The notes below the pieces were generated by a model, which saw only the letters and a program-made list of their open reading frames with translations, had not been told where the DNA came from and did no database searches. DNA of 43,286 bases from Patescibacteria group bacterium (GTDB lineage Bacteria; Patescibacteriota; Patescibacteriia; Magasanikbacterales; GWA2-37-8): contig JAKLGL010000001.1 in assembly GCA_022710645.1 (NCBI GenBank), positions 231,426 to 274,711 on the forward strand, in the 5' to 3' direction. Position 1 is the stretch's first letter. Each line of letters starts with the position of its first letter. Shown piece after piece: positions 9,896 to 13,606 of the stretch. The translations under genes and the position numbers were made by a program.

Positions 9896-10624
9896 TCATT
9901 TTTGTAAAATAGTCGCTTGCTCTTCCCCATTTTTTTCTTTTTTACCAAGCTGATTGTAATTTTCTATTTTAAATTTGGAAAAACCGACTTGTTTAACCAA
10001 TTGTTTCATTTCGTCTTTGGTAAAAACATGTATAAATCGCATAACATTTTTACCCGGTGTGGCTTTCCAACCAACATATACATCCCTTTCGTCATAACCG
10101 TTTTTTAAACACACTTCCATAGATTCTTTTATATTAAATCTTTTTTCAACTTTATCATTCAATAAATTCCAATTTAAAATTATTGCTTTTCCTCCGGGCT
10201 TCAAAATTCTTTTTACTTCAGTCAAAAATTTTAAATGATTTTCTCTACCCGGTAAATGGTGCATAGCCGCAAAACTTATCACTAAATCAAATTTATTTTT
10301 GGAATAAGGAATTTTTAAAGCATCACCGACTTTGAATTCCACTTTTCCTTTTTTTATATCCTCTTTATATTTTTTTGCTGCAATCGCAATCAATTTGGAA
10401 GAAATATCCAAACCATAATATTTTTTTATACCTCTATGCAAAAGCTCGGGGATTACCACTCCATTACCACAACCAATATCCCCTACCACCATCCCCTTTT
10501 TTGCCGCTTTTAAAATCTGAATTTTTATCGGACTGGGTTGATAACGAGAAACATCCCAATCTTTGGCGATGGTATTGTAATTTCGAGTAATATTGCGTAT
10601 AATTTGTGCAGGTTTTAAAGCCAT
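9896..10624 (-). CDS. Class I SAM methyltransferase, Trm9/ALKBH8-like
   Basis: A 242-residue SAM methyltransferase. VVGDIGCGNGVVIPEL (about residues 46-61) is motif I, YYGLDIS the acidic motif II, VGDALKIPYSKNKFDLVIS motifs III-IV, and LKPGGKAIILNWNLL motif VI. Family features point to the tRNA wobble-uridine methyltransferase Trm9/ALKBH8: the N-terminal YNTIAKDWDVSRYQPSPI, the AAMHHL after motif IV, the W in ILNWNLL, and ERDVYVGWKATPG followed by RFIHVFTKDEMKQLVKQVGF, which parallels the DVFVPW...RYYHLYREGEL segment of Trm9. Such enzymes methylate cm5U34 to mcm5U34. The gene is divergent from elp3, whose product makes cm5U34, with 5 bp between the start codons. The link to tRNA is therefore both sequence- and context-based; a generic UbiE-like methyltransferase is the alternative. 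Confidence 0.75.
   Translation of the reverse strand: MALKPAQIIRNITRNYNTIAKDWDVSRYQPSPIKIQILKAAKKGMVVGDIGCGNGVVIPELLHRGIKKYYGLDISSKLIAIAAKKYKEDIKKGKVEFKVGDALKIPYSKNKFDLVISFAAMHHLPGRENHLKFLTEVKRILKPGGKAIILNWNLLNDKVEKRFNIKESMEVCLKNGYDERDVYVGWKATPGKNVMRFIHVFTKDEMKQLVKQVGFSKFKIENYNQLGKKEKNGEEQATILQK
10575..10603 (+). promoter_or_regulatory. elp3 promoter inside the methyltransferase start
   Basis: TTGTAA (10575-10580), 17 bp spacer, perfect TATAAT (10598-10603). Transcription would start near 10610, giving a leader of about 20 nt to the ATG at 10630. An earlier start at 10606 would lie at or before the transcription start. The promoter sits in the first codons of the divergent methyltransferase gene. 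Confidence 0.65.
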
Positions 10625-10629
10625 ATACT

Positions 10630-12219
10630 ATGGATAAATTAGCGGAAAAAATCATTATCAAAGCAGCTAAAATCAAAAAACCGACCATGGAAGCGCTAGA
10701 TGCTATCAAGCGCGATTTTTTACGTACAAACAAAGACACTAAAGACATCCCCAAAAAATCCGACCTATTGGCAGTATACCATGAATTATTGCAAAAAAAC
10801 AAGATTAAAAAGAGCGTCGTTTTGGAAAAATTACTGACTAAGCGGGCCGTACGCACACTTTCCGGTGTGTCTATCATTACTGTTTTGACCAAACCATACC
10901 CTTGTCCCGGAAAATGTATTTATTGTCCGAATGAAAAAGCCATGCCCAAAAGTTATATTTCCGACGAACCGGCGGCCGCTCGCGCTTTACAGTTGCATTT
11001 TGATCCTTACGAGCAAGTGGTTCGTCGTATAGAATCACTCCAAAAAAACGGGCATCCGACCGATAAGATAGAATTGATTGTCAAAGGCGGTACTTGGAAC
11101 GCCTATCCCCTACAATATCAATATTGGTTTATTGTTCGCTGTTTTCAAGCAGCAAATAAGTCCGTAAAGTTCATAAAGCCTATAAAGTCCATAAAGTCAT
11201 TGAAAGAAAAATTAATTTTAGAACAAAAGAAAAACGAAAAAGCCAAGCACAGAATAATTGGTTTAACTTTGGAAACAAGACCGGATTTTATCAATGAAAA
11301 AACCGTTTGGGAAATGCGCGAACAAGGCTGCACTCGGGTAGAACTTGGCGCGCAAACAATTGATGATAAAGTTTTAAAATTGATTAAACGCGGACACACT
11401 GCCAAGGCGATTAAAAACGCCATGCGTTTGTTAAAACTTTACGGTTTTAAAACTGATTTACATTTGATGCCTCAATTCCCCGGTTCAACTCCTGGAAAAG
11501 ATCTCAAAATGATGAAAGAAGTTTTTGATAATCAGGATTATCGACCGGATATGATAAAAATTTACCCCTGCACGGTAGTAAAAAATTCCGAACTTTATAG
11601 TTGGCTGAAAAAAGGAAAATACAAACCTTATTCTGATAAAAAACTTTTGGAAACACTGATTGCTTTCAAAACCAAAGTCCCGCGTTATGTGCGTATATCT
11701 CGTCTTATCCGCGATATTCCGAGCCATCACATAGAAGCCGGCAATAAAATGACAAATTTACGACAAGTAATACAAACCGAAATGGCTAAGCGCGGGCTGA
11801 AATGCAATTGCTTGCGTTGTCGTGAAATCGGCCATAATGACGAATCAAAAATTAAAACTCCAAAACTATTTATTGATAAATATGAAGCCAGCAATGGCAT
11901 GGAATATTTTCTAAGTTTCGAGGATAAAAAAAGAACTGTTGTTTTTGCTTTTTGTCGATTACGTATTGATAAAAACGGATTATTCCCCTCTTTCATACGC
12001 GAACTTCACACTTACGGACAATCTTTGGCAATAAACAGTAGAAATAAAAAAGAAAGCCAACACCAAGGATTTGGCAAACAATTGGTTGCGGAGGCAGAGA
12101 AAATATGTAAAAATAATCAAGTTAATACCTTGGCCGTGATTTCGGGCGTGGGTGTAAAAGAATATTATAAAAAACTAGGGTTTAAAGAAAATCAAACATA
12201 CTTAGTTAAAAAGCTCTAA
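10630..12219 (+). CDS. elp3: Elp3: radical SAM/GNAT tRNA U34 carboxymethyl synthase
   Basis: Makes 5-carboxymethyluridine at the wobble U34 of tRNA from acetyl-CoA and SAM. Start taken at 10630 (MDKLAEK), 529 residues, the normal size for single-protein Elp3 of archaea and bacteria. Cys92, Cys96 and Cys99 in CPGKCIYC form the CxxxCxxC cluster site. MPKSYISDEPAAARAL and VKGGTWNAYPLQYQYWF follow as in Elp3, and GLTLETRPDFI, ELGAQTIDDKVL and HLMPQFPGSTPGKDL are further radical-SAM barrel strands. CLRCREIG is the zinc-binding linker. The C-terminal GNAT domain (about residues 395-529) has FIRELHTYGQSL, QHQGFGKQLVAEAE for acetyl-CoA, and AVISGVGVKEYYKKLGF. A 45 bp, 9-bp-period repeat lies inside the gene (11158-11202). 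Confidence 0.95.
   Translation: MDKLAEKIIIKAAKIKKPTMEALDAIKRDFLRTNKDTKDIPKKSDLLAVYHELLQKNKIKKSVVLEKLLTKRAVRTLSGVSIITVLTKPYPCPGKCIYCPNEKAMPKSYISDEPAAARALQLHFDPYEQVVRRIESLQKNGHPTDKIELIVKGGTWNAYPLQYQYWFIVRCFQAANKSVKFIKPIKSIKSLKEKLILEQKKNEKAKHRIIGLTLETRPDFINEKTVWEMREQGCTRVELGAQTIDDKVLKLIKRGHTAKAIKNAMRLLKLYGFKTDLHLMPQFPGSTPGKDLKMMKEVFDNQDYRPDMIKIYPCTVVKNSELYSWLKKGKYKPYSDKKLLETLIAFKTKVPRYVRISRLIRDIPSHHIEAGNKMTNLRQVIQTEMAKRGLKCNCLRCREIGHNDESKIKTPKLFIDKYEASNGMEYFLSFEDKKRTVVFAFCRLRIDKNGLFPSFIRELHTYGQSLAINSRNKKESQHQGFGKQLVAEAEKICKNNQVNTLAVISGVGVKEYYKKLGFKENQTYLVKKL
11158..11202 (+). repeat. In-frame 9-bp tandem repeat inside elp3
   Basis: Five units of a 9 bp sequence related to AAGTCCATA encode five tripeptides: KSV, KFI, KPI, KSI and KSL. 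The period keeps the frame. It sits in a surface linker between the WFIVRCFQAAN helix and the conserved GLTLETRPD strand, where Elp3 lengths vary. Confidence 0.85.
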
Positions 12220-12358: not shown

Positions 12359-13606
12359 ATGAACAAACAAAATTTATCACAATTTGACCCAGAGATATAT
12401 CAAGCGATAAAGCATGAACAATCTCGCCAAGAGGAAAATCTGGAAATGATACCTTCGGAAAATTTTGTTTCATTACCCGTACTTCAAACGCTTGGATCCA
12501 TTTTAACCAACAAATACAGCGAGGGCTATGTTGGTAAACGATATTATGGCGGTTGTGAATTTATTGACGAAGTGGAGCAAGCGGCCATAGATCGCGCCAA
12601 AAAGCTTTTCGGGGCAGAGCACGTCAATGTCCAGCCGTTATCGGGCGCTCCGGCCAATATCGCTGTTTATTTCGCATTATTAAAGCCAGGAGATACTGTC
12701 TTGGGCATGGATTTGGAACATGGCGGACATTTGACCCATGGGCACCCAGTCACTTATATGGCCAAAATTTTCAACTTTATCCGCTACAAGACCAATGACA
12801 AAGGTTTAATAGATTACGACCAATTACGCTCAGTAGCAATTGAAAATAAACCAAAAATTATTTTAGCCGGATATTCAGCCTACTCTCGTCATATTGATTG
12901 GAAAAAAATCAAAGAAATAGCTGACGAAGTCGGTGCTATCACCATGGCCGATATCGCGCATATTGCCGGACTTATTGCCGGAGGCCAAATGGAAAATCCC
13001 GTCCCCTATTTTGACATTGTCACCACTACTACACACAAAACTCTTCGCGGTCCCCGTGGTGGTATGATTATGTGCAAAGAAAAATTTGCCAAAGACATAG
13101 ACAAAGCCGTATTCCCGGGATTTCAAGGCGGACCGCACGAAAACAATATCGCGGCCAAAGCCGTAGCTTTCAAAGAAGCACTTCAACCTGATTTCAAAGA
13201 ATACGCCAAACAAATTATCGTAAATGCAAAAGTACTGGAAACCGAATTCAAAAAAATGGGATACACTATTTGTTTTGGTCAAACTGACAATCATCTTTTA
13301 CTTATTGATTTGACCAACAAAAACGTTTCGGGTAAAGAAGCACAAAAAGCTTTGGATAAAGCTGGAATCACAGTTAATAAAAATATGGTTCCGGGAGAAA
13401 CCAGAACCGCGATGGATCCTTCCGGTATTCGTCTGGGCACTCCGGCGCTTACTACACGCGGGATGAAAGAAGAAGAAATGAAAATTATCGCCGGGTGGAT
13501 TGATGAAGCGATACAAAATAAAGATAATGAGGAAAAATTGACGGAGATAAAAAATAAAGTCGTTGAATTGAATAAAAAATTTCCACTTTATCCGGAACTA
13601 GAATAA
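12359..13606 (+). CDS. glyA: Serine hydroxymethyltransferase
   Basis: PLP enzyme converting serine and tetrahydrofolate to glycine and 5,10-methylene-THF, the main C1 entry for the FolD step. The 415 residues match the family length. Visible motifs: [13 protein letters not shown] at the N-terminus, [48 protein letters not shown], and [14 protein letters not shown] with the PLP-binding lysine. [14 protein letters not shown] closes the active site. The gene follows elp3 after a 139 bp repeat-filled gap and ends at a strong terminator. A short glycine-adjacent HGG and full set of catalytic residues indicate an active enzyme. Confidence 0.98.

Follow-up and report, generated by a model that had tools for sequence, protein, structure and literature searches.

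A Trm9-like methyltransferase gene head to head with elp3 in Patescibacteria and its predicted role in wobble-uridine modification

The divergent gene pair

The window (the whole stretch of 43,286 nucleotides that was analysed, from contig JAKLGL010000001.1 of a Patescibacteria group bacterium) contains a gene for the radical SAM protein Elp3 and, transcribed divergently, a gene for a class I methyltransferase (Table 1). The preliminary description had placed the two genes head to head with 5 bp between their start codons, and the orf coordinates agree; an alternative in-frame GTG start of elp3 at 10606 would overlap the methyltransferase orf. Downstream of elp3 is glyA (serine hydroxymethyltransferase, 12359-13606), which is also found near elp3 in one related genome (G036; L059:1-210). 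The genome from which the window is taken (G000) comprises 929,478 bases with an estimated completeness of 100%, as befits the reduced bacterium that had been supposed. Elp3 makes cm5U34, which in eukaryotes is methylated to mcm5U34 by Trm9-Trm112.

Table 1. Coordinates of the divergent gene pair and its motifs in the window, and of stand-alone asparagine synthetase genes at or near elp3 at other loci (prefixed L).
Feature	Coordinates	Strand	Remarks
Trm9-like class I SAM-dependent methyltransferase, predicted cm5U34 tRNA carboxyl methyltransferase	9896..10624	minus	ATG start at 10624, 242 aa; AlphaFold2 model pLDDT 96.7
Methyltransferase residues 196-199, RFIH	10028..10039	minus	counterpart of Trm9 RYYH (R241 kept, Y243 replaced by I)
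Methyltransferase residues 181-186, DVYVGW	10067..10084	minus	counterpart of Trm9 DVFVPW
Gap separating the two divergent ATG codons	10625..10629	.	5 bp
elp3, radical SAM/GNAT tRNA U34 cm5-forming enzyme (predicted by homology)	10630..12219	plus	ATG at 10630, stop at 12219, 529 aa
Elp3 CxxxCxxC iron-sulphur motif, CPGKCIYC	10903..10926	plus	residues 92-99
Stand-alone Asn_synthase	L158:957-1805	minus	PF00733
Stand-alone Asn_synthase	L160:3834-4265	plus	PF00733
Stand-alone Asn_synthase	L161:1539-2324	minus	PF00733
Stand-alone Asn_synthase	L214:2322-3110	plus	PF00733
Stand-alone Asn_synthase	L216:4719-5531	plus	PF00733

The identification of elp3 by its CxxxCxxC motif and GNAT domain was borne out by a domain search, which detected Radical_SAM, Radical_SAM_C and GNAT domains, and by a score of 556 bits against the NCBI model TIGR01211 (ELP3; cut-off 350). 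Because of this score the protein must be considered ordinary in sequence, so that the original label "divergent Elp3" is apt for the orientation of the gene and not for its product. A CxCxxC....H motif is present at 392. The nearest solved relatives are 6iaz/6ia8 ("Histone acetyltransferase, ELP3 family", E 2e-123) and 5l7j ("ELP3 family", E 2e-110), and solved archaeal Elp3 chains align along the whole length of the protein. The residues needed for the use or hydrolysis of acetyl-CoA, which are K150, K266, Q461 and Y517 in MinElp3 and K77, K193, E386 and Y441 in DmcElp3 (PMC6367351), were mapped by hand on the structure-chain alignment and are matched by K146, K274, E458 and Y512, with glutamate at the equivalent of MinElp3 position 461 as in DmcElp3. 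For archaeal Elp3, formation of cm5U34 is established (Selvadurai 2014, as cited in PMC5372719).

Affinity and active site of the methyltransferase

A profile was made from eukaryotic Trm9/ALKBH8 sequences with zero bacterial input. We take these query sequences to be those of the eukaryotic enzymes; the yeast Trm9 sequence used matches the solved Trm9 of Y. lipolytica with E 2e-71, and the published numbering of R29, H115, R241, Y243 and N271 fits it. With a threshold of E<=1e-5, the entire genome of the window gave a single match to this profile, the methyltransferase beside elp3 (E 6e-24), and members of the same family were the top match in 48 of 57 related genomes. The methyltransferase of the window scored 85 bits and archaeal relatives of Trm9 scored 96-127, compared with 4.8 for UbiE, 6.9 for CmoM, 0.9 for BioC and -0.5 for UbiG of E. 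coli and at most 30 for the remaining methyltransferases of the examined genomes. When a second profile, built from 47 members of the methyltransferase family in the same order, was compared with all PDB chains, the first-ranked match was Y. lipolytica Trm9 (5cm2_Z, full length, 107 bits; runner-up 93); with this profile, the methyltransferase of the window scored 258 bits, ALKBH8 134 and ScTrm9 120-128. Profile-profile comparison of the family with three eukaryotic Trm9/ALKBH8 sequences gave a probability of 99.9 and E 3e-36, and alignment columns reading D..(I/V)PW and RYYH in both families confirm the parallel that had been seen between the DVYVGW...RFIH segment and Trm9/ALKBH8. By its sequence, then, the methyltransferase is a relative of Trm9, and in profile scores it goes with Trm9/ALKBH8 rather than with UbiE or CmoM, as the preliminary description had proposed.

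Two other identities were considered and rejected: UbiE/COQ5 (TIGR01934, 59.6 bits, cut-off 158.35; PRK00216, 60.4 bits, cut-off 216) and CmoM, which scores 40 bits with the family profile, far below ScTrm9 and ALKBH8. Pfam recognises generic methyltransferase domains only, including Ubie_methyltran at 45 bits, as would be expected of a generic UbiE-like small-molecule methyltransferase that adjoins elp3 by chance. Such an identity is highly improbable, being contradicted by the UbiE-family NCBIfam models, which give about 60 bits or less where their cut-offs are 158-420, by the negligible score of UbiE itself with the Trm9 profile, and by a linkage to elp3 that extends through the phylum (see below).

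Phylogeny and fold are less discriminating. A quick tree had the out-groups on one side and the Trm9-like sequences of CPR, archaea and eukaryotes on the other (SH-aLRT 93). A more careful tree held all CPR sequences together (95/94) and did not do so for the out-groups, and constraining the latter together was allowed (AU p 0.42). The trees fit a relationship with Trm9 and do not firmly place the out-groups; the Trm9 clade lacks firm tree support because the out-group branches are long. When the predicted model of the methyltransferase was searched with Foldseek and VIA-align 2, class I methyltransferases all matched at similar scores; Trm9 (5cm2_Z) was ranked 29 by Z (19.9) and 16 by Foldseek, with a sequence identity of 26% that was among the highest listed. 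The fold search is non-discriminating for such a model, as the fold is common to all class I methyltransferases. On a Peregrinibacteria contig, a Trm9-like orf adjoining elp3 also encodes, as a fusion, a glycosyltransferase domain of the WecG/TagA type (L145:5962-7512, plus strand).

In yeast Trm9, R29, H115, R241, Y243 and N271 are needed for full activity (PMC5372719). All five are the consensus of the bacterial family, being present respectively in 47, 34, 46, 31 and 38 of the 47 sequences of the order, in 61, 53, 55, 38 and 57 of 61 additional loci, almost all of which belong to the phylum, and in 18, 16, 18, 18 and 18 of 18 archaeal sequences; L057 and L018 are examples of relatives with the complete set. 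The family therefore appears well equipped for the Trm9 reaction. The window's own member is somewhat less certain, because only R27, H122 and R196 correspond to R29, H115 and R241, while isoleucine (I198) replaces Y243 and glutamate (E235) replaces N271. Conceivably the sub-lineage of the window has drifted, with these two substitutions and GW in place of PW, to an enzyme that is weak or makes a different derivative, most of the family still making mcm5U; its near relatives (L002-L005) likewise have RFIH, RYLH or RYIH and mostly glutamate at the position of N271. Such drift is considered unlikely, as R29, H115, H116, R241, W145, W168, H244 and E250 are retained and the gene is intact, present throughout the clade and has kept its head-to-head position beside elp3.

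Linkage to elp3 and distribution

The preliminary description had reasoned from a single locus, and its expectation that the methyltransferase gene would be linked to elp3 in related genomes held both within the order and far beyond it. The 57 related genomes represent 41 genera of the same order. The methyltransferase was found in 48 of them and Elp3 in 50; 47 have both and six have neither. The two genes are adjacent and divergent in 46 of the 47 genomes with both, a recurrence that goes beyond chance, and the distance between the chosen start codons has a median of 2 bp (between -9 and +12 for 34 of the 46 pairs). The one unlinked case is G053, where the genes are 13.8 kb apart. In G037, the methyltransferase gene lies at a contig end and no Elp3 was found. 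Three genomes have Elp3 only: the contigs of G041 and G055 stop near elp3, and G036, which is a single contig, truly has no such methyltransferase.

Of 153 genomes drawn from the whole phylum, 59 were called positive for Elp3 and 39 for the methyltransferase at the threshold used, and all 39 have Elp3; none of the 94 genomes without Elp3 has the methyltransferase. This nesting is significant by Fisher's test (p 7e-22, uncorrected for relatedness). In 30 of the 39 the two genes are neighbours, no more than about 400 bp apart; four more pairs lie within 4 kb and five are on separate contigs, and the linked genes are all divergent. Since 19-20 of the 59 Elp3-bearing genomes have no recognisable methyltransferase, Elp3 also works without it, which counts against the two-enzyme reading; one genome scored as negative, G127, has a weaker methyltransferase head to head with elp3. 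An independent scan of contigs recovered loci from Parcubacteria, Peregrinibacteria, Berkelbacteria, Komeilibacteria, Abawacabacteria and others, mostly with the same head-to-head pair, and from archaea as well. The same Trm9-like gene was seen in an Ignavibacteriales MAG (L093, again head to head with elp3) and an Omnitrophota MAG (L121), both sequences falling with those of CPR in the tree, which indicates either transfer or mis-binned contigs.

The distribution also bears on the substrate, which a class I sequence and fold alone would leave unfixed. CmoM is likewise a methyltransferase of a wobble carboxylate, and the enzyme beside elp3 might methylate another carboxylate (for example of the cmo5U34 type) or a substrate other than tRNA, its gene being linked to elp3 for other reasons. 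This is quite improbable, given the strict nesting within Elp3-bearing genomes and the wide separation of CmoM from the methyltransferase of the window with both the Trm9 profile and the family profile.

A predicted wobble-uridine pathway

The usual bacterial enzymes for C5 modification of U34 are scarce in these genomes. A profile search found MnmG in none of the 57 relatives of the order; across the phylum it turned up in only five of 153 genomes, all five without Elp3. No genome of the order has a match to MnmE over the cut-off; every one of them matches in the GTPase domain only, as Der/Era-type GTPases do, and these matches were therefore not counted as MnmE. MnmA is over its cut-off in 53 of the 57 genomes, including that of the window, and for some tRNAs mcm5s2U34 is therefore a possible final product. 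In the genome of the window, tRNAs with U34 were found for Lys, Glu, Gln, Arg, Gly and Leu, and for each there is a counterpart with C34. Among its 44 tRNAs (loci L166-L208), isoleucine is represented only by one with the anticodon UAU; there are just two CAU tRNAs and none with the isoleucine anticodon GAU. The UAU tRNA may be the reader of AUA, and the missing GAU tRNA may be encoded in a part that was not assembled. With MnmG absent from 148 of the 153 genomes of the phylum and Elp3 missing from 94, more than half have no recognised U34 C5-modifying enzyme.

Trm112 (PF03966) had no match at E<=0.001 in the whole genome of the window and none over the cut-off in the 57 relatives, while the positive controls, E. 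coli and four archaea, all matched. The preliminary description had noted only that no Trm112 gene was in view, and the absence thus extends to the whole genome. For this reason the methyltransferase was not assigned to a Trm9-Trm112 holoenzyme. Known Trm9 requires Trm112 (PMC5372719, PMC3110198), and the PF03966 model is merely 40 positions long; the methyltransferase might accordingly act on cm5U34 with the aid of a zinc-knuckle activator too divergent for this model, or of another protein. Against this, which we think unlikely though the least so of the alternatives weighed here, are the failure to match in G000 and its relatives and the nature of the matches elsewhere: PF03966 is over the cut-off in six of the 153 genomes drawn from the phylum, and the matches that were read (G127, G139 and G141; L146, L148 and L149) are zinc-knuckle stretches inside other methyltransferase orfs of 338-420 aa.

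The divergent pair would form the C5 arm of a wobble-uridine pathway, in place of the usual MnmE/MnmG route of bacteria. Its substrate and product, its independence of Trm112 and the identity of the modified tRNAs we infer as follows. Elp3 alone, with SAM and acetyl-CoA, would convert U34 to cm5U34, as suggested by its homology and by the archaeal enzyme; the Trm9-like methyltransferase, without Trm112, would esterify the carboxylate to give mcm5U34; and MnmA, encoded elsewhere, may contribute the 2-thio group of mcm5s2U34 in, for example, tRNA-Lys (UUU), tRNA-Glu (UUC) and tRNA-Gln (UUG). We consider it probable that Elp3 and a Trm112-free Trm9-like methyltransferase act in this succession, and the two-gene mcm5U34 interpretation of the preliminary description is supported, with a chemistry that is predicted from homology.

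The predicted system resembles eukaryotic Trm9-Trm112 and ALKBH8 in that homology extends through the whole methyltransferase domain and takes in the C-terminal lid, the signature of the family is TR, HH, W, D..PW, RYYH, E, N, and the methyltransferase is expected to act after an Elp3. Unlike the eukaryotic Trm9-Trm112 system, it is bacterial, no Trm112 gene was found, there is no long linker before RYYH, and the partner Elp3, so far as is known, acts with no further Elongator subunits. An Elp3 with a Trm9 relative and without Elongator partners has been predicted for Haloferax and Sulfolobus, and the two genes are clustered in S. solfataricus (PMC2584109, PMC5372719). A Thermoproteota contig (L135) has the methyltransferase gene and elp3 in tandem. 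In contrast to the CPR lineage, the archaea of the control set match PF03966, and the haloarchaeal loci of the contig scan show no Elp3 in the fetched flanks, whereas the pair of the phylum is divergent. The bacterial MnmE-MnmG(-MnmC) system has the same target, C5 of U34 in purine-ending split-box tRNAs, and likewise operates beside MnmA, but its enzymes and chemistry are different and its MnmG is distributed apart from Elp3. CmoM, like the predicted enzyme, is a bacterial class I methyltransferase that esterifies a wobble-uridine carboxylate, but it is not the closest family by profile and has no link to elp3.

No report of a bacterial Elp3-Trm9 pairing came to light in a literature search that covered Elp3, Elongator and wobble uridine in Patescibacteria or CPR. 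What is new is the wide presence in bacteria, the conserved head-to-head order, the nesting in Elp3-bearing genomes and the finding of no Trm112 gene; the pairing itself had been predicted for archaea.

Some genomes that have Elp3 without the methyltransferase have a different neighbour. A stand-alone Asn_synthase gene (PF00733, without the glutaminase domain) is found at or near elp3 in five of these 19-20 genomes, which belong to four genera (G077; G113 and G154; G128; G194). It is head to head with elp3 in G113, G154 and G194, one gene off in G077 and in tandem in G128, and it was not found in the loci read that bear the methyltransferase. Asparagine synthetases use ATP to activate a carboxylate, which they then amidate. 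This is the chemistry needed to convert cm5U to ncm5U, and the elp3-adjoining Asn_synthase is therefore a candidate ncm5U-forming enzyme, to be taken as a lead. The enzyme of this step is unknown in yeast (PMC3110198, PMC6367351). A tentative extension, which we would not yet favour, is that CPR possess a wobble pathway of archaeal and eukaryotic style, free of Trm112 and of MnmE/MnmG, in which the neighbour of elp3 sets the side chain: the methyltransferase (mcm5U34) in most lineages and the Asn_synthase domain (ncm5U34) in others. If so, the Asn_synthase domain would represent a type of enzyme not known from eukaryotes.

The occurrence of a Trm9-like enzyme beside elp3 through much of CPR contradicts a 2017 review in which bacterial relatives of Trm112-dependent methyltransferases were undetectable (PMC5372719), and mcm5U, which has been listed as typical of Eukarya (PMC2584109), becomes testable in bacteria. 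The pathway would explain how U34 is modified in genomes without MnmE/MnmG. Its methyltransferase would be a naturally occurring Trm9 with possibly no need of an activator, and together with Elp3 it would offer a simple two-protein system for cm5U chemistry.
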